Part shown: positions 37,401 to 64,000 of the stretch, in pieces
How positions within the stretch are numbered: position 1 is the stretch's first letter
Layout of the letters: each line of letters begins with the position of its first letter
NCBI GenBank assembly: GCA_003313425.1
Contig: NHZP01000040.1
Coordinates: 411,427 to 475,426 of the forward strand
Direction: 5' to 3'
Source of the DNA: Pseudopyrenochaeta lycopersici
Lineage: Eukaryota; Ascomycota; Dothideomycetes; Pleosporales; Pseudopyrenochaetaceae
Length of the DNA: 64,000 bases
Notes under the pieces: generated by a model
What the model was told of the DNA's origin: nothing
Databases searched by the model: none
The model's input: the letters and a program-made list of their open reading frames with translations, nothing else
Made by a program: the position numbers and the translations under genes

Positions 37401-37822
37401 CGAATCTGCTCCGCTGCTATGGCAGCAGCGGTAGGTGATTCTTCAGCCCCTGCGACAATGATGGGGAGTTGGAGGACTTCGTTGCCTTGGCCATACTATT
37501 CACAGAGTCTGTTAGGTATGCGCTGCGGCGCTGCCAATGGTAGGATCGTGAATACTCACCGAATCGTCAGGACTCGGGGTCTCGCAGAAGAGTTTCTATC
37601 ACATTCATTATTAAGCCAAGTCGAAAATTGATGTTCGCAGGGTAAAAACATACTACGCTGCGCGCAACCTTTGCCTCTGGAGTATCGCCTTCGGGTAGCC
37701 CGTCCGTTCTGGTTGAACTAGAATGAGACTCAAGAGCTAGAATCATTAATATCGCGACTAAGCATTTCTAATTCGTTTGACTTACCGTTCTCCTTCAATA
37801 ACCTCGCAAAGCGCTTCATCAT
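34411..37822 (-). CDS. chimeric protein: VHS (LSB5-like) + Zn2Cys6 + bHLH + membrane domain
   Basis: The six exons are 37822-37786, 37736-37654, 37595-37560, 37495-36616, 36543-35420 and 35352-34411. All five introns (49, 58, 64, 72 and 67 nt) are GT-AG with branch-like sites (TGCTAAC in intron 4). The coding length of 3102 nt gives 1,033 residues. Residues about 1-150 match the VHS start of LSB5-type adaptors (ARSVKLFCE, YNAIVLIRILADNPGPTF). Intron 4 splits a perfect zinc cluster: C345-x2-C348-x6-C355-x11-C367-x2-C370-x6-C377. A bHLH follows at about 468-543 (RESHNLVERRRRDNINERI, then NKGDILHATVSWIRDL) with a leucine-rich coil. A hydrophobic stretch lies at about 658-679. Exon 6 completes WKCRCGKRLYDDFIEL, seen in a fungal family that ends with GWGVQFVEGWN and two membrane helices (about 975-1031). 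No stop separates the parts, and the bHLH exon has no convincing start of its own. Whether one transcript spans all six exons is inferred. Confidence 0.65.
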
Positions 37823-38104
37823 TGTGACGGCGCTACTTTAAACAGCGGGAGCGCTAACCCACAGTGTAACTCATAGATAGGCCAGAGAAGATTTAACTAT
37901 AGCTACCTAAGAAGAGGAGGAGAGAAGTAAGAGTCATATAAGGTATAACAGTATATTAGAGTTCCGCTTTTGAAAAGCGACAGAATTGCTCAGTACGGAG
38001 TTACACTCCTTATAGCGCCCTCAATCCATCCACGACCAAGTCGGCTGTGACGCACTGGGGGATAGGCTGCAAGGCTGACTTGTAGGCGCACAAGCCGAGG
38101 TCAC
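37823..38104. promoter_or_regulatory. presumed promoter of the chimeric gene
   Basis: About 280 bp between the ATG and the right inverted arm. No clear TATA or factor site is recognised. It contains GTATAACAGTATATTAGAG near 37940. Confidence 0.3.
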
Positions 38105-38240
38105 ATGCCTTGAGGAACGAAGAGACGAGAGGCTCTCTGGACGCGCGAGAAAAAAACCTCCCCCAAAAAACCTGAAACTAAAAAAAGCAAAAATTCCAAC
38201 CCAAAAAGGACAAAACTGAACCTTTAAATCACCTGACCAA
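38105..38240 (-). repeat. right inverted arm of the chimeric-gene cassette
   Basis: It carries the inverted 32-bp core (38105-38136) and further A/C-rich tracts matching the left arm in reverse complement. Weak similarity may continue to about 38345. Confidence 0.8.
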
Positions 38241-38322
38241 CTGCCAACAAAAAAACTTGAAACTTGAAAAACCTCAGAGTTTCAGACTTCAGACCTGAGG
38301 CACCTGACTGACTGATCACCTC

Positions 38323-38868
38323 GTGACTGATCATCACCTCGATGCTCGACTCTTCCCCTTCCCCGCAGTTTCCCGTGTCCGTCCCCGTGCCCGGCCCCTC
38401 CGTTCCCCGCCACCACAATTGTGGCTTTTCGTGGCTCTGATCTGTCCAATAGCAATGGTGATTGGCTCAATTGAAAATATGGCACAACTCGGCTGTTGGG
38501 ATTACATAAACAGACAGACCCTTGCTAGCGCCATCTTTATATGTAGTACTCAACCGACTAGATGTAAATGGACACCTTGGACAATAATGAAGACAATACC
38601 TATCATGTCGATAGTCTCCTCTCCTCATCGTGCCGAAGAGCCTATAAGTCCAACAATCTTCCCTGTTCACGTCGACCCCTGGATGACGCGCTGCAAGAAG
38701 ATGGCCGAAAGACAAAATACTCAATTTCAGCCCAACGCTACGTTCAATTGTACAGGCAGAATCGCCGGTTTTCTCAATCACCATATCATGGCCCACCCAC
38801 CACAACTCCCACAAGATTACGTCTTTATCGTCCCCGACTCCTGGTCTTTCCTAGAAAAATCATCATGA
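38323..38868 (+). pseudogene. possible conserved fungal hypothetical protein remnant
   Basis: An open stretch without a good start (the frame is open from a GTG; the first ATG is inside). The last 60 residues look protein-like: VDPWMTRCKKMAERQNTQF, NCTGRIAGFLNHHIM and QDYVFIVPDSWSFLEK. I have the impression of a short fungal family but cannot name it. It overlaps the outer part of the right cassette arm, so it may be cut at the 5' end by the cassette. Confidence 0.35.
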
Positions 38869-38938
38869 GACTCTCTATCGACATCACCTCCAACAGCTAC
38901 CTCAGCTAAGCGATCTTCCTCAGACCCTCGATCCAAAT

Positions 38939-39217
38939 ATGTCCGACATACACACATCACCACCGCCTAAACGCCCACACACGGACTATATCCTACAGAA
39001 ATCGGTTCACAAAGACTCTTCCCCAACCATTACCCTATATGAGCCCTCTACCACTCCATCTAGCACTCCAACTCATGCCGCAAATCTATTACGTACCAAA
39101 CCCATTAATCCTTCTGCCACAAATCTTGTCCCATATTCTGTCCTTCAAGCCCCTGTTCTCTCTACCGATGACACAAACAGACCGCATCGAAATCGTCAAC
39201 CCACTAAAAAGTTTTGA
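38939..39217 (+). CDS. short hypothetical open frame, doubtful
   Basis: 92 codons starting with ATG, rich in Pro, Thr and Ser (SPPPKRPHTDYILQKS; ends NRQPTKKF). No domain. It lies just left of the pogo element. It could be the end of a disrupted gene or chance. Confidence 0.25.
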   Translation: MSDIHTSPPPKRPHTDYILQKSVHKDSSPTITLYEPSTTPSSTPTHAANLLRTKPINPSATNLVPYSVLQAPVLSTDDTNRPHRNRQPTKKF

Positions 39218-39244
39218 CATCAACTGGTACAATACAATAGCTTA

Positions 39245-41093
39245 ACGTATTCCATCAGCGAGCCGGCCACATCACCGAGCCGGCCACTTTTGCTTGGCAC
39301 CGCCAACTTATGCTACGCATCTTCAATTTCATCGCTATCAAACAAAGGGCCTATATATGTTGTGCTCGTATCTGATTTAGAAGATATCTCTATATCTTTT
39401 CTGCACGTTCGCGCGTTGTGCCCAGTCCTGCCACAGTTCCCACAGCGCCGTATAGCTGGTTGGGCTCTTTCTTGATCACCACTACCACGAGCCTTCTTCG
39501 ACTGATTAGCAGCTATAGAAGCCTCAGCAGCTACCTGGGCTGCTGCCTCACCATACTCTATTGTACCACCTTGCTGGATCCGCTTCCGTTTACGCGATTT
39601 ACGCCTAGTCATTACTGCTAATTGCTCTTCAAGCTCAGCAATACGAGCAGCTTGAAGCGCGTTTTGGTGCAGCATCAGCTTACTACCTTTGATAAGCTGA
39701 GAGAAGCCAGCCTGGGCTGTAACAGGCGATCGAGTTATAGAGCTGCTTACGAGCTTTGACTGAGATCCAAACTCGTGTGTATTGCTTGGTGTCTTTGATT
39801 GCCATGGCGTGTCTTGTGGTGGGGGTGGAGGAGGGGTGCGCAGCCGTACTTCAAGGCGATCTAACACCACCTGCGCGTTGATAGGGACTAGTCCTGATGC
39901 CTCAAAGGCCTTTGACAGTTCTTGTCTGTAAACACGTCGAAAAACGCGTCTCTAAAGGCTGGTAAGAAGCCTTCCTTGTTAATATGGAAGACGCGCCGGC
40001 GTGCCAAGTCTCTGACGCCCTGGAAGTACTTGCGCTTCAACGGCGAGAAGCAGACCACATCAAGCGGCTGAAGGATGTGTGAAGCGTGGGCTGGCATACA
40101 GAGGGTGAGGATCCTGTGTTTAAGGCAGTAGTCCTTAAAATCCTGGTTGAGGTGGCTCTCATGGCCGTCCAAAATGAGCAGCCTATACACCCCCACCTGA
40201 CGCGCCTTTGTGTGCGCGTCAAAGTGCTTTAACCACTTCAGGCCAAGCACGTTATTTGTCCAGCCATTCTCAGAGACTGAGAGCTTCCAATTGCCTGGTA
40301 TATCTATCTCCTCGTACCACGCAGAGATGTGGACGCGTCCCTTGTAGATAATGAATGGCGGGATCGCGTACCCAGCAGCGCAGATGCTCTGGATAACGGT
40401 AACCCACTCGCGATCACCTGGCTGAACTAGCTCTGGCCGAGCACGTCTCTCTGAGCCTGTAACAACCTTCATTGATCCAATTACGCCCATCTGAAAGCCA
40501 GTCTCGTCAAAGTTGTGCACGTCGTTGTCGTGGACACCATACTTGGCCTTGGTGTCAGCTACTAGCTTAAACCACGCGCCAATTATCTCTGGGTCCTCCT
40601 GGAGTATTCTCTGCCTATCCTTTGCTCGATTGAAGGCCATTTTAAGCGCCTCTGAACGCGTTACAAAGCGCTCAGCCCAGCACTTGCCCACAGGCTTACC
40701 ACCACGTACACCCAGCAGTTTATCAGCCATATCTGCCACTTCACACAGTCGCGGCGCAAATCCTCGCGAGTCAAGGTTGAGGATATATTGGACGATCGTC
40801 TGCTCTTCAGTCGCTGTGAGCTTATGGCAGTTTGGTCGCGTTTGGGATCGAGAGGTGATTCCGTGGAGCCGATCAGAGAGCCGCTGGTGTTTAACGTTGA
40901 AGGCTGCAGCCGCGCGCCATAGGCTCTTAAATTGGCTAGAGGTATAGGCCCGAAGAGCAAGATCAATTCTGCCTTCTTCTTGAATGGCTATTGCGTTGTG
41001 TTGTTGAGACATTGCATGGTGATGAGGAAAAATGGGTGCGCCAAGCAAAAGTGGCCGGCTCGGTGATGTGGCCGGCTCGCTGATGGAATACGT
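39245..41093 (-). mobile_element. Fot1/pogo DNA transposon, 1,849 bp, perfect TIRs
   Basis: A TA duplication (39243-39244 and 41094-41095) borders inverted ends identical over at least 54 bp, starting ACGTATTCCATCAGCGAG. Each end holds two copies of CGAGCCGGCCAC, the usual place for transposase binding. The single gene on the - strand fills the element. The perfect ends suggest recent movement. Confidence 0.9.
39313..41012 (-). pseudogene. Fot1/pogo transposase with one frameshift and a zinc knuckle
   Basis: The ATG is at 41012 (MSQQHNAIAI). A helix-turn-helix and CENP-B-type region is followed by the DDE/D catalytic core: HNFDETGFQMG (first Asp), LLILDGHESHLN (second Asp) and HILQPLDVVCFSPLKRKY (third). 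At about 39930 the frame shifts and runs into a TAG at 39888. In the next frame the protein continues from the same point (SGLVPINAQVVLDRL) to a C-terminal Pro-rich stretch, a basic coil and a CCHC knuckle CGNCGRTGHNARTC, stopping at 39313. A single missing base explains it. All catalytic residues precede the break. Alternatives are a programmed frameshift or an assembly error. Confidence 0.85.
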
Positions 41094-41169
41094 TAGTAGT
41101 TTATATATTATTTATTCTATGCGTTGCAGTTTGGTAGAGTAGATCAATTGCTTAACTTGTGGGGCTACT

Positions 41170-41210
41170 GATCGGTTCGCTTGTTTGATCGGCTCGCTTG
41201 TGGAACACGT
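41170..41210. repeat. second pogo-type terminal repeat
   Basis: GATCGGTTCGCTTGTTTGATCGGCTCGCTTGTGGAACACGT followed by TA shows two GATCGGYTCGCTTGT units, like the subterminal repeats of the element that ends 77 bp to the left. This is the end of a different, mostly lost element. Confidence 0.5.
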
Positions 41211-41330
41211 TATACGTCCTATGGTTAGCCTGATGCAACGTAGATCCGATGACGGTGCGAATTTGGGTTTCCAGGTAGAAACCCCCTAATGGGCCGTGCC
41301 ACGTGAGTGCGGATCGGCCTTCGGCTCAGC

Positions 41331-41355
41331 TCAGCCCAGCTCAGCTCAGCTCAAC
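41331..41355 (+). repeat. CAGCT short tandem repeat
   Basis: About five copies of CAGCT/CAGCC in a row, in the region upstream of the NLR remnant. Confidence 0.6.
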
Positions 41356-41449
41356 CCTAGCCGCTGTGTGCTCTTTCTATAAGTGTATTATCGCATTCAC
41401 GATTTTTCATGAGCACAGTCCTAAGATGCGATGCCCGACAACACGCCGA

Positions 41450-42251
41450 CAGTCTCTACGGGCGCGAAAGAGTTCGGTGCGATTTCCGACAATCGCGGGG
41501 TCGTTACCGGTGATATATCGGGCACCGCGCAAGTAGTCGGTGGGCCCTGTCAACGCCTATGGCCCGTCTCATACTGACTTCTAGACAGGCACGCAGACAA
41601 ACAACATCTACTACCCAGGCAAGTCGCTGGTGGCGATTTTATGCAATGAATCGAGGCTGACGGTATCCGCTAGAACCTACAGGCTTCTACCGTAAAGCAA
41701 AGACTACAAGATTGCTTACACCAGAAGACCTCACCAGGAATTGCTTAACCGCACTATGGTAGACCAACCCATCGCTAACCAACCCTCTTGACAATCGCAA
41801 GAGCCTCATCTATAAGAAGGGACCAAGAGTCGGCAGTACTTGCGAATGGATCAGGCAGAACAAGACTTATGTCTCATGGCTTCGCTCTCCCTCGCAGCTG
41901 CTCTAGCTGTCTGGGGGCCCCGGCAAAGGCAAGACGATGCTCTCTATCTTCCTTGCCGAAGACCTCGAGCGGGTTGCAAGACAGTCGCAAGACGCAATAT
42001 TCATACAATATTTCTGCGACAACAAAGACGAGAAGCGAAACACAGCTGGTGCTATCCTTAGAGGACTTGTTTTTCAGCTTTTGCAAAAGCGCGAGAAGCT
42101 CATAAACTATATTCTCCGGATCTTCCAAATTCAGAAAGAAAAACTATTCGCCGACTCAGGCCTTATGAACACCCAGAACTATGCGGTCTCCCCCTTTTTT
42201 CTCTTGCCCCGTGCGTTCGCTAATCTTACGAAACAGAAGGAGAACACCTAG
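41450..42251 (+). pseudogene. NACHT-type NLR remnant
   Basis: The frame reads NPLDNRKSLIYKK, STCEWIRQNKTYVSWL, then a TAG where the family has Trp, then LSGGPGKGKTMLSIFLAEDL, a NACHT Walker A (GPGKGKT). It continues through FIQYFCDNKDEKRNTAGAI and ends at 42251 in unrelated residues. Walker B, the rest of NACHT and any repeat domain are missing. About 300 bp upstream another frame reads FGAISDNRGVVTGDISGTA, of the kind seen in the linker before NACHT in fungal NLRs. At least one frameshift separates the two. Fungal NLRs act in non-self recognition and cell death; this one is dead. Confidence 0.65.
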
Positions 42252-49126: not shown

Positions 49127-52100
49127 CGGCTAGCAGCCCGCCACCTCTTAATCTCGCAGCAATCCAAGACGACGTGAGTATAGTACGGCGTGGGCTCTCG
49201 TTTCTCTCAGCAGCACGCCTGCAGGAGGGCGAGCAGTGGATGCTGCAGCAGCTGTCAACTACGCCAGCAGGCCAGCGCTTATATAAGCAGCAGAAGGGGG
49301 TAGCAAGCGAGCAGCAGGAGGACGCGCAGCAGCTAGTACAGTGGAACAGACGCAGGGTGCGGCAGCACCTACGCCAGATTAATCGCTTTCTTGACCTACT
49401 CTGCCTCGCGGTCCACATAACAGGCGGCCAGCCAGCGCGTAGGTCTGAGCTGCTCTCAGTTCGGTGGCGGAACGGGGTGCTTCAGGATCGCAACCTCTAC
49501 GTAATTGATGGGCAGGTAACGCTAGTAACGCGCTACCACAAGACGCAGGCGCAGTGGGATCAGCCTAAGGTAGTAGCGCGCTTCCTGCCAGAGGCAGTAG
49601 GGCAGCTAATTGCGGCGTACCTGCTCTACGCACGGCCACTGCGGGCGATGCTGCTCAGCGGGCTAGGGAAGCAGGCGTCAGCGCACACGACTGACTATCT
49701 CTGGGCTAATAAGCAGGGCCCGTGGGAGACAGATCAATTAACGCGTGTGATGGCGGCTGAGTCAGCAGCCTGGCTGGGCACGCGGTTGACGACGCAGGAC
49801 TACCGCCATACTGCTGTAGGGATTGGGAGGGAGGTAGTAGGCGAGCGGTTTGCTGCCAGCTATCGCGCAGAGCTAGCTCAAGGTAGGACAGCAGAGGAGG
49901 CAGAGGCAGGCAGCGAGGACGATAGCGAGGATCCGCTTGAGCTACAGAACGGGCGGACGACAGCGATTGGCATGGTAGCGTACGCTGTGCAGGCTGATCT
50001 GGTGCAGGGGCTCAGCGCGCGGTCAATTGACGTGTTCCGCACGCTGACCTGTACGTGGCACGCGTTTCTTGGCTTCGCAGAGGCAGGGGCAGGAGTAGGA
50101 GCAGGGGCAGGAGTAGGAGCAGGGGCAGGAGTAGGAGCAGGGGCAGGAGTAGGAGCAGGGGCAGGAGTAGGAGCAGGGGCAGGAGCAGGGGCAGAGAAAG
50201 AGAAGCAGCAGGAGAAGCAGGTATCAAAGCGGAAACAGGGGGGAGGCGTTACTGAGCAGGCGCAGGATAGTAGCGAGCACAGCCGCAGGCAGAAGAGGGC
50301 AAGGGTAGGTGAGGAGGGTACCGCGGCTGTAGCAGCAGTATCTGCTCAAGGCAAGGGCAACAAGGAGAGGAGGGGGCTCGAGGACGCTATTCGACAGGTG
50401 CTCTGTCTCTCAGCCAATCATCTAGTCAAGTACAAGTCAGCTACACAGGAAATCGCACTACAGGCTGTTGTACGAGGGCTTAGTCCGCTGGTAGTAGTAC
50501 TACCAACAGGCGGAGGTAAGACGCTACTCGCATTTGCTCCAGCAGTACTTGAGCAGCAGCAGGCAGAACAGAAGGCAGAGATAGGTAGTATTACGATCTT
50601 TGTCGTACCATATCGCGCACTAATCCAGGATATGCTCGTACGGCTTAGGCAGGCAGGTATTAAGGCAGCTGAGTGGAAGGCAGGGGTTGAGGGCGACTAT
50701 CAGAACCGCCGGACGCTAGCTACTATTATAGTAGTTAGCGCTGATCACGTAGGGAGTAGCAGCAGGCAGTTTCTCTCATACGCCAGCTTACTTGCACGGC
50801 AGGGAGTGCTACAGCGGGTAGTAGTTGATGAGTCGCATGTTGTTATCACAGCAGACTCGTGGCGGACAAAGCTGCAGAGGCTAAAGGATCTTCGGCTACT
50901 GCCGTGCCAGCAGGTACTACTTACAGCTACGTTACCGCCGTCGCAGGAGAGGCAGCTACAGGAGGTAATGCTAATGCGCGGAGCAACAATTATCCGCGCA
51001 GAGACAACGCAGCGACGTAGGACGCAGTACACAGTAGTTCGCTGCAGGCGTAAGGTAGAGCTACAAGATACAGCTGTAGAGCTCGCGCGCAGGCTGATGG
51101 ATGAGGCAAGGTTACTTAGTGGCGCGCAGGTAGCAGAGGTAGCAGTAGGACGAGAGGTAGCAAGAGCGAAAGGGGTCGTGTACTGTCGCAGCAAGGCGCT
51201 GTGTGAGCAGCTAGCAGGGCGGCTAGGCTGCGTAGCGTACCACGCAGGCATGCCCGGGCGCGCAGAGGTGCTAGAGAGGTAGAGGCAGTCAGGAGGGCTA
51301 ATCACGTGCACGTCAGCGCTCGGAGTAGGAGTGGATATCGCGCAGGTACTCTTCACGCTGCATGTAGAGAGGCCGTGGGGGATGGTTGATTTCGTGCAGG
51401 AGAGCGGGCGAGCGCGAGGGGCAGGCAAGGCAGTGATTCTAGTGGTGCAAGGACAGCAGTGGCAGAAAGCTGAGGGAGAGGCAGAGCTAGAGGCAGAGGC
51501 AGAGGCAGAGGCAGAGGCAGAGTCAGAGTCAGAGGCAGAGGCAGAGGCAGAGGCAGAGGAGCAGCAACCGATGAACGATAGCGACGTGATGGACGCGTTT
51601 ATCAGCACAGTAGGCTGTCGAAGAGCAGTGATGAGTCAGTATATGGACGGCAGGCGATTATCTTGCAGACAGCTACAGGCAAGAGCAGATACAGGAGTAG
51701 GCGGCGCAGCAGACAGGGCAGCAGAAGGCGCAGAGATAGCGTTCTGCGATAACTGTGAGGAGCAGGAGTATGGAGGGCAGAAACAGTGGCAGGACGAGGA
51801 GCAGGTACAGGCGAGGCAGGAGCAGGTAGTACGGGCGAAGCTCGATGAGCTATCGCAGACGACGTGTCCATACTGCTGGGGTATGTTGCATGAAGTATTC
51901 AGGAGGGAGGAGGGCAAGGTGGCAGTACAGCAGGAGGAAGAGGAGGAGGAGTATGAGGCAGGGCAGCAAGAGGAGGAAGAGGCGGAGCAACAGACTGAGC
52001 AGCAAGCTGAGCAGCAAGCTGAGCGGCAGGCCGAGCTGCAGACTGAGCAGCAGACTGAGCAGCAGACTGAGCAGCAGGCTGAGCAGCAGGCTGAGCAGCA

Positions 52101-52635
52101 GGCCAAGCAGCAGGCCGAGCAGCAGGCCAAGCAGCAGGCCGAGCAGGAGCTCGAGCAGAGAGAGCGCGAGGCGGCAGTACATAGTCTGTGGCAGTGTCCG
52201 CGGCTTGGGCAGGAGGGGTTGCAGGATATAGAGGAGCTGCGGAGCAGGGTAAGGTATAAAAAGGAGGTTCAAACGTGCTGGAAGTGTGGGATAATGGAGT
52301 ATCTCTGCGGCAGAACGCAGGGTAGTAAGCAGAGCAGCAAGCAGAGCAGTAAGCAGAGTAGTAGGCAGGCAGATTGCGCATGGCCGAACGTAGCGATAGC
52401 AGTACTATATGGGCTACAAGTAGCAGCAGAGGCAAAAGCAAAGCTAGAGGTAGGTAGAGGAATTCAAGATAGTAGGCTTTGGGAGGTAGGATATCGAGGG
52501 CAGGTAGATAGTAAGGAGGAGCTAGGTAGATGGATAGGAGAGGTATATCAAGATAAGCGGATTTTTAAGCATATTACTAGTAAAGGAGTAGCTAGTATTA
52601 TATATAGTATCTTAGAAGAGGAAAGAAAGAAATAG
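47254..52635 (+). pseudogene. TLH-like gene 2: OrsD-like + recombinase-like + RecQ helicase, one TAG
   Basis: One frame of 1,793 codons with a single stop, TAG at 51280-51282 (codon 1343), where EVLER-W-RQSGG is expected. Order: Cys/His N-terminus (CKEHQQAVYSLEKHL, CCYCN...RKHINKQHG); Gln/Ala/Gly repeats (QQAGQ, 47760-47935); helical middle; recombinase-like domain with R729 (TGGQPARRSELL), K763, Q848-x-x-R851-H852 and Y910; a GAGVGA repeat (50085-50190); RecQ core with LPTGGGKT (K1089), DESH (1192-1195) and, past the stop, SALGVGVDIA and QESGRARGAG; an EAE-rich linker; and a Cys-rich tail (CDNCEEQ, CPYCWGM, CWKCGIMEYLC). The stop removes motif VI and the tail. Motif VI is itself unusual (GRARG for GRAGR). 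Leucine uses CTN codons freely. Confidence 0.8.
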
Positions 52636-54600
52636 ATATAATTTATATAGTATTTATAAAAGAATAGTTAACTAGTTTAAATAAGAAAAAAGAAGAAGAA
52701 AGTAAAGTAATTTAATATAAGATATTAGAAAGAGAGTAAATAATAGATAGCTGTATTTAATAAGAAAAAGAAGAAAGAGAGTAAAGTAATTTAATATAAG
52801 ATATTAGAAAGAAAGTTAAGAATAGCTAGCTACTTTAAATAATATATAGAATAGCTATAATTAGGTTAATTTTTAGAAAAGTTAAGTTTATATATAGGTT
52901 TTAGTAGAAAATACTATATAAATAATAATAGTAAGAAGCTATAGTATATAAAACTATTCTAAAAATATAGTAGTATAACTTTTATAGTAGTATAATAAAA
53001 CGTTATTAGAATATAATAGTTAAAAGATAAAAAGAAAAGAAGAAGAAAAGTATTAGACTTAATAATTAATAATATTATAGTAAAGAATAGTTTTTAAAGT
53101 AGAGTAGATAAAATAGTAGTAAAGAAGAATATAGTAAGTAAAGTAGTAGTAAGTAAAGCAGAAGTAAGTAAAGTAGAAGATAAAATAGTAGTATATAAGA
53201 TAGTAGAAAGTAAGATAGTAGAAAATAAGATAGTAAGTCAAAGTATAGCTAAAGTAGTAGTAAGTAAAAGAGTAGATAATATAGTAGTAGGTAATATAGT
53301 AGATAAAGTAGTAGATAAGAAAGTAGTAGGTAAAGTAGTTCATAAGTAAGTAGGTAAAATAAACGTAGATAAAGTAGTAGTAAAAGAAGTAAAAGTAAAT
53401 AATAGGTTAGGAGTATTAATAGGAAAAAAGAAGAAAAAAGTAAAATAATTAAAATATAGTATAAGGACAAGTAAATAAGAAGTAATTATAATTAAAAGAA
53501 AGAGGTTAAAAAGAGTAAAGTAATAAAAGATAAGTTAAAAAGTGTAAAGTAATAAAATAGAGGTTAAAGAAGAATAGATAGTAAGTAAGTAGTATTACTT
53601 AGAAAAAAAAAGATAGTATAATAATATAAAAGAGTATAGTATGTAGAGTTATTATAAGTAATAGAGTAGATAGTATAGTAGAAGTAATATTATAAAAGTT
53701 CCGAATTTAAAAAGAATAAAATAGTAGGAATAGTTTTAAAGTTAATAAGAATAATTAAAGTAGGTAGTAAGTAGTTAAAGACTAAGTAGTAAATAGTTTT
53801 ATAAAAAAAACAAAAGTAAAGTAATATAATATAATAGAGAAGAATAGTAAGTTATAAGTAATAGAGTAGGTAGTATAGTAGAAGTAGTAAAATTAAGATT
53901 TAGAATTTTAAGAAAATAGGAAAGTAGAAATAGTTTTAAATTTATTAAGAAATATTATTTAAAGTTAGTATAAGTAGATAGTAGTACGTAGAAAGTAGGT
54001 TTATGTTATTAAGGTTAAAAAAAGGAAAGTAATAGAATATAGTATAATAGTAGAAAGATAGTAGGTATATAGTTTATAGTTTTAGTTAGTTAAAAAAGAG
54101 ATTAGTAATTTAATATAGTATAGAAGGAGATAGATAGTAGAGTTTTCGTAGGTAGTTTTATAGAGTTAAGAGTTAAGAAAACAAAGTAATAGTATAAAAG
54201 TAATAGTATAGAAGTAATAGTATAAAAGTAATAGTATAGAAGTAGATAAATAGTAAGGTTTTCGTAAGTAGTATTATAGAGAAAAGAAAAAGAAGAGTAA
54301 AGTAATTATATAAAGTATTAAGGGAGATAAATAGTAGAGATTTGGTATCTAGTTTTATAGGAGTAAGAAAGAAGAGAGTAAAGTAATATAATATAGTATA
54401 GAGAGAGAAAGATAGTAGGGATTCGCTAACCGGTTTTATAGAGGTAAGAAAGAGGAGAGTGAAGCGATAGGATATAGTATAGAGGGCGAAAGATAGTAGG
54501 GATTTGCTAACCGCTTCTATAAGAAAAAGAAAAATAAGAGCGAAGCGATAGGATATAGTATAGAGGGAGAAAGATAGTAGGGATTCGGTAACCGCTAACA
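52636..54600 (+). repeat. subtelomeric repeats after TLH2
   Basis: 52636-52997 repeats the 3' flank of TLH1. From 53040 to 53460 short AAGTAGTAG/GATAGTAG words dominate. 53700-53820 matches 30478-30600. From about 54180 units of 80-90 bp with GATAGTAGGGATTCGCTAAC match those at 30.6-31.1 kb. Apparent Tyr/Leu-rich open frames on the - strand are by-products of this composition. Confidence 0.75.
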
Positions 54601-55074
54601 GCAAAGACCGAAGGGATTAAGGTCGTTTTTGGGGTTAATCCCCTGAAAAACCCTAGCAGTTGGGGCCTTAATCCCTAAGGTCGATAATATCAATGGGATT
54701 AAGGTCTGAACTTGCGTGGATTGCGCTGCAACTTCACAGTCTAATGCATCTAACTCCGTTGCGTTGATTGAACCAACTTTCATGACGATTGGACAAGTAT
54801 GTCGTGAGATATTTAATGAAAAGTGTAATGGTTTTCGTGGTTGTTAGGGTAGGCCGTGCGCGTTTGAGTTGAGTAACAATGCCAAGATTAGGGTTTCGAG
54901 ACACCATACAAAGTGCCCGGGGGAGAGTCCGACAGCGTGATAGACAAGGCATCACAAAAAGAAAGTTCATTGAAGTACAGTAATTTCCGTTAGAACGACC
55001 GCGAGGATTGCAACCATATAAGGAAGAGAAAGGGCAATTTTATAGAGTATATATTGTCTATGTAGATTAATACA
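54601..55074 (+). promoter_or_regulatory. upstream region of TLH3
   Basis: GGGATTAAGGTC occurs twice (54613 and 54694) and its inverse TTAATCCCTAAGGTC once between them, so small inverted copies could bind a dimer. TATAGAGTATATATTG at 55041-55056 is TATA-like, about 20-35 bp before the ATG. The last CT dinucleotides of the window lie here (54777, 55058). Confidence 0.4.
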
Positions 55075-58000
55075 ATGGAGCAGTTTACCAGCATTTTTGA
55101 GTATTTGCCAGCACAGCGCATCGCCGTATGCAAGAGCCACCAACAGGGTGTTATTAAATCCCAGTTGAAGACCCATTTAGACACCAAGCATCAGGAATAT
55201 GTTCGCAGGACACGTTGGGAAATCGTCGAGGTAGTACAGGCAGAGGCATCATTGCAACAATGGGCCATGACCCAAGACGAGGTTGTTTACCCCAGCCCAG
55301 AGTCCAGCCCGTTGCCCCATTTGCCGGTGTACCACGACGGATTGCGTTGCCAGCAGTGCCCGTACGTTAATCGTAGCATCAAACGTATCCAAGAGCATTG
55401 TCGACAAGAGCATGGTTGGAAGGGGGACAGTCGGCCGAAGCCAGGGCGTCCGTCAGGCACGCGAACCATGTGGGCAACCGTGTCATGCCAAAAGTTCCAA
55501 AACACCAGTAAGATGGGCCGATTGTTTGAGGTCAGCGCAGCCACAGAGGCCCAGCACACAGGCGACGCGGACGTGGACGTAAGCCGGGCGATTGAGGAGT
55601 CGTTGGTCCAGGCCACAGCCCAGTTAGAGGAGTTGGAAGAGAAGAAGAATTCCACCATCCAAGCCAACGACGACCGGTACGATTTTAGCAAGTGGTTGGA
55701 TCGAGCGGGTTGGGCCCGACATTTGAAAGGGTTGAAGCGTGATTGGTTGTTAACAATGGCGACAAAGCCCACGACCAAGGAGCGCGCATTGTACGAGGTA
55801 TGTTGGGCAGCACGCATGGTCATGTGGCGGGCACAGCAGGCGTCCAAGGCAAGTGTGGTCGGGTTACCAGCCATGATGTACATCAATCGGCGAGAGTTTG
55901 GTGGCAAGGGCAACGAGAAGCCGTTCAATGCGCAGCAAACAGGAAAAACAATGGTCAGGTACAGCAATTGGTGGTTGGAGATTATTTCATACATTTGGCG
56001 GACCCACGAGTTGCCCGTTGTCAGCAGCCGCAACGACGACGTGGAGGTGGAAGGAAAGAGACCGCCGTATCACATCAGTGGCAGGCAGGATATGTGGTTG
56101 CAAAAGATCAAGATGATCGTAGGGCGGGACCAGGAGGAGGATTGGTTTGAGGAGATGGAGTCGGACGGCGAGGGCGACGAGGAGAGGTTGGACGAGACGC
56201 AGGAGGAGGAATTAGAGGGCCATGTGTTGCAGTTCATGTTAGCATTGTTGGACCATTTTTTGGGCGACAGTGAGTACACGAGCGCGTTGATCAGTGGTAT
56301 GGCCGTGTTGGGGATCAGCGCCGAGGACGGTTGGTTGAGCCCGTTGGTATACACGCCCAAGCAGGCCGCCATCGTCAACACATCACGCATGTTGGTGTTG
56401 TACAAGTCGACCCAGTTGCGGCAGCAAGAAGTAGGCAAGTTAATGGCCGAGGGTTGGGGAGCAGAAGATGCAAAAGCCATGGCACCAAGCCATTTCCATT
56501 TGGTGCAGGAGATGGCCCAGCGGTTTATGACGTTGACCGATTACAATGGCAAGCCAACGCCCATTGATTATATACAGCGGTTGAAGGCATTTGGATTCCA
56601 CATCCGGTACAACACGAACGCAGAGGGAGTGGTCGATTGGAACGGCGATACGTTGTTGTACCGTAACATCCGGTTCAGCATGCCGCAAATGCGGTCGATG
56701 ATCCACGGCACAATGGCCAGCACACGACAACAGATTGTAAGGGATTTAATGTTGTTGCAGATAGACGACGAGGGCGCGATAGCCAAAGACACAACGGCGT
56801 TGCCAGTCATCGATTGGGCAAGGTTGGTCGACAATGCAGCCGAGCAGCGGGTTGGGTGGAGTTTCATGGAAGACCCGCGCAACAAAAATGCCACAAGCGT
56901 AGATGATCCCAAGCAGTGGTTAGCGCAGCGGGTACAGAAGGAAAAGGCCATACAAAATAGTTTTATCGACGTTGAGGTGACACGGGCGGCGTTACCCAGA
57001 GGTGGAAGCGTGGTGTGGTTACGGGACCGCATACAGGCATACGGGCAAGCCATGAAAGAAGCCCGACACAAGTTGGCAGCGTTAGTCCATATGACAGGAG
57101 GTGCACCAGCGCGGGCGACGGAGTTGGTGACGGTCAAATACAAAAATAGCGCGAATGGTGACAGTCGAGGAATTTTTATCGAAGATGGGTTGGTAGTGTT
57201 TGTTACCAAATATCACAAGAATATCGGACAGTCAGGCAACGGTAAAGTAATCCACCGATATTTACCACGCGAAGTAGGCGAATTAGTCGTTTATTATTTG
57301 TGGTTCGCCAGCCCGTTTTGGCACCAGATCGAGGGGGCGGTTCGTGGCAAGGCGGTAGACACGAGCGCATATATGTGGGAGCCCCAGCCGGAGCAGGGTT
57401 GGCAGAAACCCGAGAGGAAAAGAAGACGCGGTGCCGAGAGCGTCCAGTGCCGCAGCAAGAGCGCAAAGAGAGACAGCAGATGCCGCAGCGTCGGTCGAGC
57501 GAGCCAGGATTCGTGGGAAGAGGGGGCCGAGTCGGGTGACGATACAGAGCAACCAGACGACCAGCAGCGCCCCATAGAGTTGTGGAACACCAACCGGGTC
57601 AAGCACGCGATGCAGAAAGCATCGTTGCCGCATATGGGTGTCAAGTTAAATGTGCAGGCGTGGAGACATGGCACCAAGGCGATGTACCGTCGATACATTC
57701 ACAACCGGGCCGCGGTCAAGGCATTTTTAGACGCCGACGAGGACAGTGACGGTTCAGAAAACGAAGATGAGTTTTTCGACATCCAGACAGGTCACGGCAG
57801 CCGCATGGCCGGCGGCATATACGGACGACCCGTCACGGAGGCCATGTTCAGCGTCGAGGCGAAGAGGGTCGGGTTACGTTTGGCCAGCATGGAGTGGCAT
57901 GCGTTTTTGCAGATTCCGTCCACCATGTCGATGAAACCGCGGAAAGGCACGCAGGCAGCAGCAGCCCGTAAAGAAGCAGTAGAGGAAGAATACCGTCGGT

Positions 58001-59880
58001 GGAAGATGATGCGGTTGGTGGACGTAGACGCCGAGTTGAAGAATTTGGTGGGGGACCAGGCCGAATTCCGCAGCGTCCAAAGGCCAGCCATCCAAGCGAT
58101 TATGCAGCACAAGAGCCCAGTAGTAGCCATCATGGGCACAGGGGCCGGCAAGAGCGTGTTGTTCATGTTGCCAGCGTCGGTGTCCACCGGGGTAACGATC
58201 GTGATTGTTCCGTTGGTTGCATTGCGGTTCGACATGAAAGAGCGGTGCGAGCAGTTGGGCATTGTCAGTGCAGAATGGAACAGTCGACGGCCGCACGAGT
58301 CCGCGCAAGTCATGTTTGTAACGCCCGAGGCAGCGGTGGGCGAGATGTTTGGCGATTACATCACCCGACAGCGGTTGATGGGACGTTTGGATCGGATTGT
58401 GGTGGACGAGTGTCATGCCGTATTAGATTCGTTGGACGGTTTCCGTAGCCGGATGTTGAAGTTAAGAAGTTTGGTTCGAGTGGAGACACAGATGGTGTAT
58501 TTAACGGCGACATTGCGGCCCAGCGAAGAGCAGCAGTTCATCGACGTGATGGGATTACCGTCCAAGAGGCAGTGCCAGTGGTTCCGCGGACAGACGACGC
58601 GTAAGAACATCCGATATCGAGTACATGCGTACGACACAGCCGACGAGCAGCAAGCAGTCCAGCATTTGGTGGAGGATTTGAAGAATAAGTACCCGTTGCC
58701 CGGCCAGGTTGTTGTGTATTGCGGTTTAGTGAAGCGAACAAAAGACATGGCCAAGAAGTTAGGGGCCGTTTGTTACCATCGGGAAGTTGGCAGTATCGAA
58801 GAGAAGAAGGAGATTGTCAAACAATTAACCAGTGGACAACAGCAGGTGTTCACAGCGACCAACGCGTTAGGGTTAGGGATCGATGCGCCGACGATCCGCG
58901 CGGTAGTTCACATAGGCACAATCCGCAAGATGCGGCATTACGCACAAGAAAGTGGCCGGGCAGGGCGTGATGGTAAGCCGAGTGAGGCAATCATCATGCG
59001 AGGGTATCGGAAAACACGACAAGGGAGGGTGTATGGTAAGTTTGGCAAGGACGTGGAGGCAGAGATGCAGGATTTGATTGCGGGAGAGGGGTGTATGCGG
59101 AAGGTGATTGACCAGGCGATGGATGGGGCGGATGGAGTGGATGGGGTGGACACGCGGTGGGAGTGCGAGGAGGATGAGGAGCGGTGTCAACGTTGCGCGA
59201 GGCCAGGGGTAGGGAGGGCGCAGGAAGAGGAGTGGGTGACAGCAGAAAAGATGGAGTTTGAGCAGCAGGGCAGGGGGCGGAAATGGTTGGCGGAGCAAGA
59301 GATGGAGCGGCAGTGCAGAGAAGCAGCAGAGGTGGAGGCATTGGTGGAGTTGATGGAGGAGTGGCGGGTAGGGTGTCAGTTGTGCCGGGCGTGGGGGGAA
59401 GATGGAAGGGGACATGAGTTGGAGGATTGCGTTCACGAGCAGGCGGAGAACGCGCGAGAAGGGTGCGAGAGGTTCCAGAAGGATTGGATTTATGTTAAGT
59501 TTTCATGTTGTTATGATTGTAAATTGCCGCAGGCGTTATGCAGGAGTTTTGAGATGGATATCATGGATGGGGGGTACAGAAAAAAGGCAGGGAGAAGATG
59601 TCAGTACGAGGGCGTGTTGATGAAGACATTGGTAGTGGCGTTAATGCGGGAGGTGTTTAAGGTTCCGGAGTTTTTTCACGGGGCGATAAAAGAGGATGGG
59701 GTTGCGGGGGGGTTGGGGTTTGAGGAGGACGAGGAGGACGAGGAGGACGAGGACGAGGTTGTTGGGGGGACATTCCGGGCGATCGTGCAATGGGGGAGCG
59801 GGAGGAAGCGATGGGGAGGGATTGAAGGGAACAAGTTGAGTTGGATTATTGGGAGGATTGTTGGGTGTTTGAAGGGTTAG
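55075..59880 (+). CDS. TLH-like gene 3: intact OrsD-like + recombinase-like + RecQ helicase
   Basis: 1,601 codons, no intron, no stop. Residues 1-130 hold a Cys/His region (CKSHQQGV, and CQQCPYVNRSIKRIQEHCRQ like a C2H2 finger). A helical middle part follows. The recombinase-like domain has R680 in TGGAPARATELVTVKY, K715 (TKYHK), Q861-x-x-R864-H865 (VQAWRHGTK), G906-H907 and Y916 (QTGHGSRMAGGIYGR), with the order and spacing of tyrosine recombinases. The RecQ-type core has MGTGAGKS (K1026), DECH (1111-1114), YLTATL, TNALGLGIDAP and QESGRAGRDG (1291-1300). The C-terminus is Cys-rich (CQRCARP, CQLCRAW, CCYDCKLPQALC), perhaps zinc-binding. All three TLH genes point to the telomere. It lacks any CT dinucleotide, so leucine is only TTG or TTA. 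The call as telomere-linked RecQ is firm; recombinase activity is inferred. Confidence 0.88.
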   Translation: MEQFTSIFEYLPAQRIAVCKSHQQGVIKSQLKTHLDTKHQEYVRRTRWEIVEVVQAEASLQQWAMTQDEVVYPSPESSPLPHLPVYHDGLRCQQCPYVNRSIKRIQEHCRQEHGWKGDSRPKPGRPSGTRTMWATVSCQKFQNTSKMGRLFEVSAATEAQHTGDADVDVSRAIEESLVQATAQLEELEEKKNSTIQANDDRYDFSKWLDRAGWARHLKGLKRDWLLTMATKPTTKERALYEVCWAARMVMWRAQQASKASVVGLPAMMYINRREFGGKGNEKPFNAQQTGKTMVRYSNWWLEIISYIWRTHELPVVSSRNDDVEVEGKRPPYHISGRQDMWLQKIKMIVGRDQEEDWFEEMESDGEGDEERLDETQEEELEGHVLQFMLALLDHFLGDSEYTSALISGMAVLGISAEDGWLSPLVYTPKQAAIVNTSRMLVLYKSTQLRQQEVGKLMAEGWGAEDAKAMAPSHFHLVQEMAQRFMTLTDYNGKPTPIDYIQRLKAFGFHIRYNTNAEGVVDWNGDTLLYRNIRFSMPQMRSMIHGTMASTRQQIVRDLMLLQIDDEGAIAKDTTALPVIDWARLVDNAAEQRVGWSFMEDPRNKNATSVDDPKQWLAQRVQKEKAIQNSFIDVEVTRAALPRGGSVVWLRDRIQAYGQAMKEARHKLAALVHMTGGAPARATELVTVKYKNSANGDSRGIFIEDGLVVFVTKYHKNIGQSGNGKVIHRYLPREVGELVVYYLWFASPFWHQIEGAVRGKAVDTSAYMWEPQPEQGWQKPERKRRRGAESVQCRSKSAKRDSRCRSVGRASQDSWEEGAESGDDTEQPDDQQRPIELWNTNRVKHAMQKASLPHMGVKLNVQAWRHGTKAMYRRYIHNRAAVKAFLDADEDSDGSENEDEFFDIQTGHGSRMAGGIYGRPVTEAMFSVEAKRVGLRLASMEWHAFLQIPSTMSMKPRKGTQAAAARKEAVEEEYRRWKMMRLVDVDAELKNLVGDQAEFRSVQRPAIQAIMQHKSPVVAIMGTGAGKSVLFMLPASVSTGVTIVIVPLVALRFDMKERCEQLGIVSAEWNSRRPHESAQVMFVTPEAAVGEMFGDYITRQRLMGRLDRIVVDECHAVLDSLDGFRSRMLKLRSLVRVETQMVYLTATLRPSEEQQFIDVMGLPSKRQCQWFRGQTTRKNIRYRVHAYDTADEQQAVQHLVEDLKNKYPLPGQVVVYCGLVKRTKDMAKKLGAVCYHREVGSIEEKKEIVKQLTSGQQQVFTATNALGLGIDAPTIRAVVHIGTIRKMRHYAQESGRAGRDGKPSEAIIMRGYRKTRQGRVYGKFGKDVEAEMQDLIAGEGCMRKVIDQAMDGADGVDGVDTRWECEEDEERCQRCARPGVGRAQEEEWVTAEKMEFEQQGRGRKWLAEQEMERQCREAAEVEALVELMEEWRVGCQLCRAWGEDGRGHELEDCVHEQAENAREGCERFQKDWIYVKFSCCYDCKLPQALCRSFEMDIMDGGYRKKAGRRCQYEGVLMKTLVVALMREVFKVPEFFHGAIKEDGVAGGLGFEEDEEDEEDEDEVVGGTFRAIVQWGSGRKRWGGIEGNKLSWIIGRIVGCLKG

Positions 59881-61000
59881 GGTCACGTGAGTGGCATGAG
59901 ACCCCAGTGGGATCCGGAGTGACATTTTCAAAACAGTACAGTATAACGTAATAGAGGCAGTAGCAGTACAGGGTTTGTAAGGGTGTAAGGAGTGTTTTTG
60001 ATAGTTATTTGATAAGAGTTGGGGTTAATGCCCGTACAATAATCCCAGGGAAGACGTAAACACCCGTACAAGAATTTGCAGGGGAGTAGAGGGAAGCCCG
60101 TACAAGGATTTAGGGGAGAAGGTAGATGTTCGTACAAGGATTGCAGAGAGAAGTGGGATGCCCGTATAAGAATTTACAGGAGAAGTTGGACGTCCGTACA
60201 AGGATTGTATGGAGTAGTTAAATAAGGGAGGGAGAGAGATTTGAAGAGTTGAATGAAGGGAGGGAAAGAGATTTAAAGGAGAGGAGGGGAATGCCCGTAT
60301 AAGAATCCCAGGGGAGAGGTAACCCGTCCGGTGCAGAACGCGGAGCGTAACAGAGGGATGGGGGTTTGGGCCCGTAAGGTGTCATAAGAAGAAAGGAGGG
60401 GAAAGAGGGAGAGAAGGGGTACCCGAACCCGAAGGGCAGAGGAAACCCGTAGGGTGTAATAGAAGGGGAGGCGTAAAAGGTAGGGTAAGTTCCGGCCCCA
60501 GCAGGGGCGGAAGTTACGGGCAACAAAGCGATATAAAAAACAGGGGTAAGTAAGGTAGGGTGGAGAGGGCAGCAAGGATGGAGGGCAAGAAAGGGTTGCA
60601 GAAGCAAGGTAAGAAGGTAGAGAGTGGGCGGACAGTAGGTAGACGTTAGGTGCAGGTAGGAGGAGTTCCGGCGCCGTCAGGGACAGAATTTGGGAGTAGT
60701 AAGGAATAGTAAAGTTCCGTTCGGGCCGGAACCGAAATCAGAAAGGTAGCCCCGACCCGTTCAGTAGTATGTTGTAGCCGTAGAGAAGAGGCCCGTAGAG
60801 AAGACGAACAAGGCAGGTAGCCGGTTAGTGTAAGAGGAAAGGAGAAGAAGAGGGGAAACCGTCCGGTGTAGGAGAAATGAAGGGTTAGGCGGTGAGCCCG
60901 TCCGTGCAGGAAAAGAAGCCGAACACAGCGGGTTGGTAAGGATATAAAGTAGAAAGAAGAGTTTGGATTATATTAGTAAAAGAAGGTTTAGGTTTTAAAG
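59881..61000 (+). repeat. degenerate CCCGTACAAG repeats
   Basis: GCCCGTACAAGGATTTAGGG-like words recur every 30-45 bp from 60030 to 60210, then thin out (CCCGTAAGG, CCCGTCCGG, CCCGTAGAG) to about 60900. Possibly an old minisatellite. No gene is seen. Confidence 0.6.
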
Positions 61001-62756
61001 TAAGGCAGATTAGGAAAAAGTATAATGTTTTAATAAAGTAGATTGCAGGGGAAGAAGGCGAAGAAATGAGGATTAGGGTTTTAGAGGTAAAGAGAAGGTT
61101 AGAGTGGTAGGAAAGAGGTAAAGGGGAATGTTAAAAGCGAAAAAAAGGGAGAAGAGAGTTGTAGAGAAGAGAAAAGGGCGGTGAGAGTTGGGAGGACAGG
61201 TAAAGATGAAGTTAAAAAAGTTGTGAAAGGGAGGTAAGTAGAGAAAACAGGAGAAGGTAGAGAGAGTAGAGAAAGTAGAGTAGGAGAAAAGAGAAGAAGA
61301 GAAAGAAGAGAAAAGAAGAGTAAGATAAGAGTAAAAATAGAAGAAGGAAAGGGTAAAGTGGTAAAACGAGTTAGTTTGGTAAGAAAAGAAGAAAGGCAAA
61401 AAGGGTAAGAGTAAGTAGAAGAAAAGAGTAGTTTAGTAGTTAAAAGAGGGTTATAAAGAAAGAAGAGAGTAAGGGAGAGGGAGAGGGTTAGAGTTGAAAG
61501 AAAGAGGTAAGGGGGAAGGTTAAAGAGAAGAAAAGAGAAGAAGAGGAGGAAAGAAAAGGTAGTAAGTGTTAGAAGAGGGGAAAGAGGTTGAGAGAGTGTA
61601 AGAGTAAGGGTTTGGAAGGTTAAAAGAGTTAGAGTTGTAGGAAAGGATAAGAAGGTAAGTTGAAAGAGAAAAAAGAGAAAAGAAAAAGAGTCGCAGGAAA
61701 GAGAAAAGAAGGTTAAAGTAGAGGGAAAAGGGAAGGTAAGAGTTAGAAGGAGAAGTAGAGAGAAAGTAAAAGAAGTTTAACAAGGGAGGTAAGTTGTAAA
61801 AAGGAGAGAGTAGAGAAAGTAGAGTAGAGAAGAAGAGAAGAGGAAGGAAAAAAGTAAGTAGAGAGTAGGTGCAAGTGTGAGAGAGAAAGTAAAGAAAAGT
61901 AGAGGGGTAAAGTTGTAAAAGTCGTAGAAAAAAGAGAAAAGAAGAGTAAGAGAAGAGTAAAAAAAGGAGAAGGAAAAAGAGGAAAGAGTAAAAGGATAAG
62001 TTTAGTAAGAAAAGAGTAAATAGAAGAAAAGAGGGTTATGGTTTGAGAAGAGAGTAAGGGAGAGGGAGAGGGTAAAAAAAGAGAGGGTTATGGTTTTGAG
62101 AGAAAGAGAGTAAGGTTTAGAGAGGGAAAAGTAGGGAAAAGTAGAGAGTAGGGGAAAAGGAGTAAGTTAAAGAGAGAAGGTAAAAAGAAGTGTATAGTAA
62201 AGTAAAGGAGAAAAGAGAGAAGAGTAAAAAAAAAGTAGAAATGGAGAAGGGTTAGTTTAAGAGAGAAAGAGTTTAAAAAGAGAAGAGAGTTTTGTTAGAT
62301 AGAAAAGGGAGAAGGAGGATAGAAGTAGGAGTAAAGGGTAGGAAAGAGAGGAGAAAGAAAGAGAGTAGAGGGTGAGGGAGAGTAAGAGTAAGGGTGAGGG
62401 AGAGTAATAGTGAGGGTGAGGGTGAGTAAGAGTGAGGGTGAGGGAGGGGGAGAGGGTTAGGGTTTTGGAAGAAGGAGAGGGTTAAGGTTTTGAGAGAAGT
62501 AAGGGAAAGGGGTTAGAGAGAGGGAGAGAGAAGTTAAATAGTAGAAAGAAGAGTAGAAAAAGGATGAGGAAAAAGTAAGGTGTTTAGAGAAAGTAAGGTA
62601 GTAAGGAAAGAGTAAAGAAAGAGAAGAAAAAGAAGGGTTAGTTTTTTAAGAAAGGAGGGAGAGAGTAGAAGTTGGGAGAGAGTAGAAGTTGGGAGAGAGT
62701 AGAAGTTGGGAGAGAGTAGAAGTTGGGAGAGTTGGGGTTGTAGAAGTAAAAGGCAG

Positions 62757-62790
<34 letters not shown>

Positions 62791-62817
62791 AAGAAGAAGA
62801 AGAAGAAGAAGAAGAAG

Positions 62818-62849
<32 letters not shown>

Positions 62850-64000
62850 GGAGAGAGTGTAAGGGAAGAGAGGTAAACAGGCGGAAAAGTAGAGGTTTTA
62901 AGAAGAGTAGGAAAAGAAAAGAGAGGTAGGAGTTAGGAGTAAAGAGTAGAGGAGAGAAAGTAGAAGTAAAGGGATGTAGGGGTTGAGAAGGGTTAGAGTA
63001 GTAAGAAAGGCAGGGAAAGAGTAAAAGGGGGAAGAAAGTGTAAGGGAGAGGGTTAGAGTTGTAGGAAAGGTTAAGGGGGTTAGTTAAAAAGAGAAAAGAA
63101 GGGTAAAAGTAGAGGAAAAAGGGAAGGTAATAGTTAGAAGAAGAGGTAGAGAAAAAGTAAAAGAAGTTTAGAAAGGAAGGTAGGTTGTAAAAAGAAGAGA
63201 GTAGAGAGTATGTAGAAGTGTGAAAAAAATAAGTTAAAGAAAAGTAGGAGGAAAAAAAAAGTAGAGAGGTAAAGTTGTAAAGGTAGTAGGAAAAAGAGTA
63301 AAAAGAAGAAAAGAAGAAAAGAGGAAAGTAAGTAAAAAAAAAGAAAAAAGTTGAGGAAGAGAAGAGGAGGTGGAAGAAAAGGGTTGTTAAGAAGTAAAAG
63401 GGAGAGTTAAAAAGGAAGAAAAGAGTAAGGAAGAGAGGGAGAGGTTAAAAGGAGTAAGAGTGTAGTAGAGTAAGAAAGGGAGGGTTAGGGTTGTAAGAGA
63501 AAGAGGAGGTTAGAGTTGTAAGAAGAGAGAAGTTTAAGTTTAAGGTAAAGGAAGGAGTTGTAGAGAAGAAGGAGAAGAATGGGAAGGAGAAGAAGGAGAG
63601 GGGGGAGGAAGGAGAAGAAAAGGGTAAAGAGTAGGAAAGAGAGGGTGAGCAAGTAAGGTAAGGTGTAAAGAGTTGGAAGTAGGGGTAAAGAAAAAGAGGG
63701 GAGGTAAAAGGTAAGAAAGAGAGGTAAAAGAGAGGGGGGGAGTTAGGTAGTAGAGGAGAGGAGTAAAAGAGAGAAAAGGGTAAAAAAAAGAAGGGGTTGT
63801 AGTAGAGTTAAAAGGGAGTTGAAGGTGTAGGAGAGGTAGGTGTGAAGTTAGAAGAGTAGTAAAGGGTTGAGAAAGAAGGTAGTGAGGGTGGGAGAAAGGA
63901 AAAGAGGGAGAGGGTTAGGGTTTTGGAGGAGGAGAGGGTTAGGGTTTTGGAGGAGGAAAGGGTTAGGGTTTTAAGAGAAAGAGAGTAGGGGAAAAAGAGA
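61001..64000 (+). repeat. purine-rich telomere-proximal DNA with TTAGGG-bearing units
   Basis: The + strand is almost only A, G and some T. It holds four 17-bp units (GGGAGAGAGTAGAAGTT, 62658-62725), an AAG run (62761-62847), GAGGGTGAGGG words at 62390-62450, and GAGAGGGTTAGGGTTTTGGA units at about 62450 and, three times, at 63909-63975. TTAGGG is the usual fungal telomere unit and is read here in the direction expected for a right-hand chromosome end. No true telomere array is present. Confidence 0.7.
62761..62847 (+). repeat. AAG trinucleotide run (29 units)
   Basis: An uninterrupted AAG/GAA microsatellite of about 87 bp. Purine-pyrimidine mirror sequence that could form triplex DNA. Confidence 0.9.

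Follow-up and report, generated by a model that had tools for sequence, protein, structure and literature searches.

Near-complete absence of the CT dinucleotide from the telomere-ward strand of a RecQ helicase module in Pseudopyrenochaeta lycopersici

The stretch of DNA analysed here, hereafter the window, comprises 64,000 nucleotides of the forward strand of contig NHZP01000040.1 (C40) of Pseudopyrenochaeta lycopersici (assembly GCA_003313425.1, positions 411,427 to 475,426); its end is the right end of the contig, for which no TTAGGG triplet is listed. The outermost part of the window holds one copy of a repeated module built around TLH-A, an intronless open reading frame (ORF) for a telomere-linked RecQ helicase, together with noncoding flanks, and the strand of this module that runs towards the contig end is almost devoid of the dinucleotide CT. 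The features concerned, in window coordinates, are the following.

52600..54594, + strand: older AT-rich, C-poor spacer upstream of the module; CT not depleted relative to C content
54595..54755, + strand: 161-bp repeat, left edge of the module; CT normal; also at C15:31991-32151
54756..55074, + strand: 5' flank of the TLH-A gene; the only CTs are at 54777 and 55058
55075..59880, + strand: TLH-A gene, intronless ORF, telomere-linked RecQ helicase; ATG at 55075, 1,601 residues, 0 CT
55093..55416, + strand: OrsD domain (PF12013, E 8.8e-23, residues 7-114)
56626..57918, + strand: tyrosine-recombinase-like fold (residues ~518-948; R680, K715, R864, H907, Y916)
58057..59007, + strand: RecQ-type helicase core (residues 995-1311)
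59881..61080, + strand: 3' noncoding flank; 151 C, 217 T, 0 CT
61081..64000, + strand: terminal spacer, nearly C-free; 16 C in 2920 bases; resembles degenerate telomeric repeat

The preliminary description had counted by eye one CT, at 55058, in about 9.2 kb from 54779, and the count is exact: this is the single CT on the + strand across 54779-64000, where ~209 are expected from the base counts (C 1173, T 1645, 9222 bases). The cytosine dinucleotides that it listed as remaining do so (CC 282, CA 471, CG 419, TC 171), and AG occurs 1383 times on the same strand (observed/expected ratio, O/E, 1.25). From 55059 to the contig end, 8,942 bases pass without a CT; the longest CT-free run in the rest of the window is 566. 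Shuffling each part 300 times gave a mean of 185 CT for the gene (minimum 150; observed 0), of 11 for the 5' flank from 54779 to 55074 (minimum 5; observed 1), of 27 for the 3' flank (minimum 15; observed 0), and of 2.3 for the terminal spacer (minimum 0; observed 0), which is uninformative on CT loss. The tract that carries information is 54779-61080, with ~220 CT expected, and the one-strand loss of CT within it is confirmed as real in the assembly. The loss had been said to run through codons, codon borders and noncoding DNA alike, which holds for this tract and not for the C-poor last 3 kb, where CT cannot be counted. Codon choice alone is ruled out as its cause, since CT is missing also at codon borders and in the noncoding flanks; the TLH-A protein recoded with the codon usage of its nearest paralog yields 178 ± 8 CT (minimum 155 in 1000 draws). 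Trinucleotides that do not contain CT occur at 0.70-1.33 of their first-order expectation, which indicates that the rule is the dinucleotide itself.

The left boundary is sharp, with 13 CT starts within 54595-54777 and thereafter the one at 55058 alone; the CT-free part starts within ~22 bp of the start of the TLH-A sequence proper, and the edge at 54777 may be merely that start. A transcription start at this edge was considered and withdrawn, since 54595-54755 is the repeat found also on contig C15 (- strand, 89%, the match ending at 54755). In the copy on C28, homology to the module stops inside the gene, at window position 59408, and CT reappears 17 bases beyond. These edges, at the module start and at the C28 break, point to the CT-free state as a property of the module and not of telomere distance. 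On the inner side, the older spacer retains 4 CT among 14 C in 53001-54000, and its part from 53095 to 54594 matches the C17 and C62 ends at 89%. The 161-bp repeat bears GGGATTAAGG/CCTTAATCCC motifs, and its C15 copy stands alone and looks altered by repeat-induced point mutation (RIP). An Rfam search of 52000-64000 gave no match.

In the genome searched (62.7 Mb, 188 contigs), the gene has 33 matches, grouped into 28 loci, 23 of TLH-A and five of other lineages, and a search with the left edge of the module (54595-54860, matched at 97-100%) gives the same 23. Ten TLH-A loci on different contigs, that of the window included, show ~100% protein identity over the full length, and the remaining TLH-A loci hold truncated, interrupted or RIPed copies. 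The 1200 bases of the 3' flank are matched throughout at 99-100% at 13 loci and at 96-98% at two, and partly at the remainder. Gene DNA, whole or partial, was read at seven TLH-A loci (window, C28, C10 left, C106, C31, C69 and C83), 5' flanks at five further loci (C10 right, C44, C92, C23 and C56) and one spacer (C10 right), the remaining TLH-A loci being judged from match tables. Among the 12 loci of the 23 assessed for orientation, 11 face the nearer contig end, with left-end copies on the - strand and right-end copies on the + strand, and C92 does not. The tract had been presented as a feature of a chromosome end; the agreement of strand with end bears this out, with the correction that the module is repeated and occupies 23 loci, of which this tract is one. 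The 5' flanks of the C10, C44, C92, C23 and C83 copies are identical to that of the window (390 bases read for C83); that of C56 differs at 54735, at 54813, where a CT is gained, and at 55059, which leaves no CT there. The CT at 55058 is common to both C10 copies and to those on C44, C92, C23, C83, C31, C69 and C106. The C31 and C69 copies (L033 and L034) show, in the parts that were read, no difference from the window other than indels, and these indels are probably consensus error at unpolished contig ends, not real frameshifts.

In the encoded protein, the DEAD and Helicase_C profiles score above cut-off and the best PDB sequence matches of residues 994-1311 are RecQ helicases; the gene thus combines the RecQ helicase domain with the multiple copies and the position beside chromosome ends that mark the TLH family. 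The middle region has the fold of a tyrosine-recombinase catalytic domain with its R, K, R, H/W and Y residues, from which recombinase activity is predicted. These residues (R680, K715, R864, H907 and Y916), whose roles we presume after the motifs of Cre and XerD, are present in 28/28 aligned sequences, and also in the paralogs L026, L027 and L028, and position 861 carries M, Q, L, S or I in place of H. Pfam gave no match in residues 360-980, the recombinase-like region included, and Foldseek alone gave none below E 0.001 for that region. Named relatives, proteins only, include those of Parastagonospora nodorum, Pyrenophora tritici-repentis, Bipolaris maydis and Paraphaeosphaeria sporulosa, fungi of the Pleosporales, the order of the host; a related-locus search yielded a single bacterial helicase locus, 26% identical, from genome contigs and none from viral contigs.

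In the paralog L026 (C28:43.7-48.6 kb), 47% identical, CT stands at an O/E of 1.00, and in the TLH-B lineage (L027-L030), ~35% identical, at 1.21-1.25, including L028, whose distance to the end of C38 is 5.2 kb, at 1.21. The 3' flank of L026 contains one CT in 1,643 bases, with 51 expected; part of this flank is a C-rich, CT-less minisatellite, CCCGTAGAAG, and no CT occurs in its final, largely nonrepetitive 1,150 bases, where 28 are expected. Diverged copies of the flank at C11, C50 and C1 (77-83%) carry 154 CT in their aligned parts, opposite which the L026 flank has CC at 134 (116 before A or G), CT at one, and TT, AT or GT at none. CT thus sits opposite CC and never opposite TT, AT or GT, which marks the C11, C50 and C1 flanks as RIPed descendants of an ancestor without CT; the ban on CT in the 3' flank thus predates these copies, and the RIPed copies do not obey it. 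A perfect 15-bp inverted repeat stands ~40 bases past the L026 stop (L026 and L043), and CT nearly vanishes directly after it; a 12-bp version of this hairpin occurs in a TLH-B flank (L042, 505-531), the CTs of which look largely RIP-made.

The routes by which the gene lost CT are visible at the 69 sites with CT in both L026 and L027, where the window has TT (39), GT (11), AT (9), CA (5), CG (2), CC (1) or other dinucleotides (2), and never CT; the other 15 dinucleotides shared by L026 and L027 are retained in the window at 36-70%. Many of the 39 TT were forced, because leucine CTN stays leucine only as TTR and two-fold codons permit only C-to-T. In the window gene, two-fold codons end in C at 0/46 positions before T and at 154/233 where the next base is not T; in the paralogs, such codons ahead of T end in C in 25/31 (L026) and 23/33 (L027). 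NCT codons are absent from the window gene: the 25 aligned with NCT in L026 are now NCG (9), NCC (7), NCA (2), NTT (2) or other (5), and those aligned with NCT in L027 are NTT in 2/51, the departure having been chiefly via the third base. A four-fold test took the 16 distinct sites at which a GT, GG or CG codon of a paralog has C before T, and found G at 11, T at 3 and A at 2 in the window gene, where plain C-to-T change predicts ~8 T (binomial P 0.009); in the control, before other bases, 20 of 55 sites kept C and 8 have T. The prevalence of TT as the fate of CT, considered as a sign of C-to-T mutation, was weakened by the NCT and four-fold tests. Scars in the protein comprise 18 derived residues in 592 conserved columns, two of CT-to-TT type. 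Other changes of C between paralogs and window are CC to TC (6/55), CA to TA (3/70) and CG to TG (9/101), beside CG to CA (12/101) and TG to TA (12/109).

RIP had been set aside in the preliminary description, and it is rejected as the cause here too: in this genome its targets are CA and CG of either strand and it creates CT out of CCA and CCG, and the module has an intact ORF, a CA O/E of 1.56 (TG 1.03) and a loss restricted to CT on one strand. The RIPed copy L031 departs from the window by 167 substitutions and L032 by 485; a single one of these is neither C-to-T nor G-to-A. The RIP changes of L032 number 324 at CA/TG and 144 at CG, and in three flank copies (L047-L049) C-to-T changes number 112 before A and 111 before G. 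Elsewhere in the window, an AT-rich block at 10001-16000 (GC 12-31%) is depleted in CA and TG with CT and AG similar, as expected of RIP on both strands.

Telomere distance as the sole cause is likewise rejected. The outer 10 kb of the TTAGGG-bearing ends of C5, C17, C18, C50, C54, C62, C65, C77 and C83 have same-strand CT near or above expectation, several of these nine ends sharing one repeat family and so not being independent; on C10, CT is ordinary in the sequence beyond a short TTAGGG tract, and it is normal in L028. Such normal-CT sequence beyond or beside TTAGGG occurs at several ends (L036 from C10:1591660; L009, L011, L014, L015, L017, L018 and L019), placed as a telomere-inserted repeat would be; L014 has one ORF of at least 250 aa, of 279 aa. 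Kilobases nearly free of C are found at window 61081-64000 and on C1, C10, C38 and C182, 66-99% alike between ends. In the terminal spacers compared, TT, TA, AG and GT are common, and AT and TG fall to 0.14-0.31 and 0.14-0.47 of expectation; these are the dinucleotides of TTAGGG with G/A drift, so the spacers are read as degenerate telomeric DNA, for which no special process is needed, and they were dropped as evidence of deamination.

The reading tentatively favoured here is selection against CT (CU in RNA) acting on some single-stranded form of the module that runs towards the telomere and is probably RNA. A CT would harm or block the propagation of that form, most likely a transcript of TLH resembling telomeric repeat-containing RNA (TERRA), and copies gaining a CT would be lost or overwritten by CT-free copies; the reader of the signal might instead recognise AG on antisense RNA. 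AG is the obligatory 3' splice signal; the antisense strand has one AG in 6.3 kb, and the sense strand has GTA[AT]G at 4.0 per kb vs 1.1 in 34000-42000, plentiful AG and no CTRAY. In a concrete version of the mechanism, the RNA would lack CTRAY branch sites though rich in 5'- and 3'-splice-like motifs. Selection is preferred because of the escape routes of the codons, the exemption of RIPed copies, the two-base form of the rule, and the strand and length of the CT-free part, which suit a unit directed to the telomere. In its wider form, the proposal is that a telomere-linked, possibly mobile recombinase/RecQ module is under a near-absolute ban on CT, which covers the telomere-ward strand of the 5' flank, all 1,601 codons and the 3' noncoding DNA and is imposed by some factor that recognises CU in RNA or CT in single-stranded DNA; this is a serious possibility that stops a little short of probable.

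Several observations weigh against selection of this kind. The L026 gene retains CT, which is missing from its 3' flank alone, and single CTs are tolerated, at 55058 in many copies and at 54813 in C56. TT is raised in the gene (O/E 1.67), the 3' flank (1.58), the 5' flank (1.26) and the L026 flank (1.51), as C-to-T change would do, although TTAGGG-like motifs also push TT up. It is difficult to imagine selection strong enough to maintain a two-base rule in the noncoding DNA of a family with ~20 members, and no agent that recognises all CU or all AG is known to us. Selection against CT was one of the explanations put forward at the outset, and it fits somewhat better; the avoidance of branch sites, given as an example of it, cannot alone account for the loss of CT in every context.

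A mutator specific to CT and to one strand, a cytosine deaminase or similar, acting on the strand displaced by telomere-ward transcription (R-loop) or on another single-stranded intermediate of active copies, is possible, and in a version with mixed outcomes it is nearly as likely as selection: uracil repair followed by translesion synthesis could yield both T and G, and selection on the protein would purge the harmful outcomes. Such an enzyme would agree with the way in which the strand follows chromosome orientation, with the 39 TT and 0 CT at the 69 shared sites when the other 15 dinucleotides are largely kept, and with the TT excess of gene and flanks, and it would spare silent RIPed copies. 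It is less easily reconciled with the T found at only 3/16 four-fold sites, the NTT in only 2/25 and 2/51 aligned NCT codons, the TT forced at leucine and two-fold codons, and the fact that C elsewhere became T no more than G became A; moreover, the deaminase families matched in the genome (PF00383, 10; PF14437, 3) include none linked to the tract, and NAD1 gave none in a search that had no working control. Unlikely, by comparison, is a filter on DNA copying, by which the module would spread from end to end, through its own recombinase and helicase or by break-induced replication, via a single-stranded intermediate cut at CT. The ten full-length, nearly identical copies on different contigs, the conserved catalytic residues and the CT of RIPed copies are consistent with this process, which is opposed by the many copies with single CTs and by paralogous modules of the same protein architecture with normal CT; it also suffers from the fact that, to our knowledge, no nuclease of this kind has been described.

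The explanation first offered for the tract, deamination of CT on the 3' G-strand exposed by resection of the telomere, is now very unlikely, although the orientation of 11 of the 12 assessable loci and the C-free terminal spacers would accord with it. Its prediction of CT loss at other ends fails at the nine TTAGGG ends and beyond the TTAGGG of C10; L028 lies close to a contig end with normal CT, the four-fold sites show little C-to-T, CT made by RIP is retained in related flanks, the sharp edge at 54777 is common to the window, C10, C44, C92, C23 and C83, and the spacers resemble degenerate TTAGGG. That no special process is involved, the tract being low-complexity, purine-rich DNA of telomeric derivation or an assembly error, can scarcely be credited: such DNA would account for 61081-64000 and in part for the minisatellite of the L026 flank, whereas the gene and the nonrepetitive flank are not of low complexity, ~220 CT are missing, copies on other contigs lack CT as well, and the codons are compensated.

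A strict ban on one dinucleotide, on one strand and across coding and noncoding DNA, is not produced by codon usage, RIP or base composition. It requires an enforcer with two-base specificity that acts, most simply, on single-stranded nucleic acid, almost without fail and not on the paralogs, and the identification of this enforcer would bring to light a new strand-specific mutator, a surveillance step for telomeric RNAs, or a route by which subtelomeric helicase genes are copied. The CT-free extent may mark a unit of telomere-ward transcription or copying, and the tyrosine-recombinase-like fold in these helicases suggests a possible route of end-to-end spread. Among the titles listed by searches of the open-licence literature, which cannot prove absence from print, none concerned CT-free subtelomeres or a recombinase-RecQ fusion at fungal telomeres.

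Among known systems, we know of no CU rule for TERRA, and a telomere-ward transcript of that kind would cover the CT-free domain of the module. In Ustilago maydis, TERRA and C-strand RNAs across the subtelomere junction are reported in a passage of PMC9119445. With RIP, for which 240/242 mutations at CpA are given in a passage of PMC10294615, the module shares a context-dependent loss of cytosine in repeated fungal DNA, and it differs in losing CT alone, from a single strand, and in genes that are intact. Cryptons and other tyrosine-recombinase elements, compared here on the fold, likewise combine a eukaryotic tyrosine-recombinase fold with a repeated, candidate mobile module, although in TLH-A this fold is fused to OrsD and RecQ. 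The closest likeness in gene and position is to the TLH families, subtelomeric RecQ genes described in passages on Fusarium oxysporum and Mycosphaerella graminicola (PMC12857005, PMC4522978) that mention no such dinucleotide rule: in both cases a multicopy RecQ helicase gene lies beside chromosome ends, and TLH-A differs by its CT-less coding strand and by the OrsD domain and tyrosine-recombinase-like fold in the same protein. The gene itself is a variant within the known TLH family, and it is the ban on CT that appears to be new as a phenomenon.

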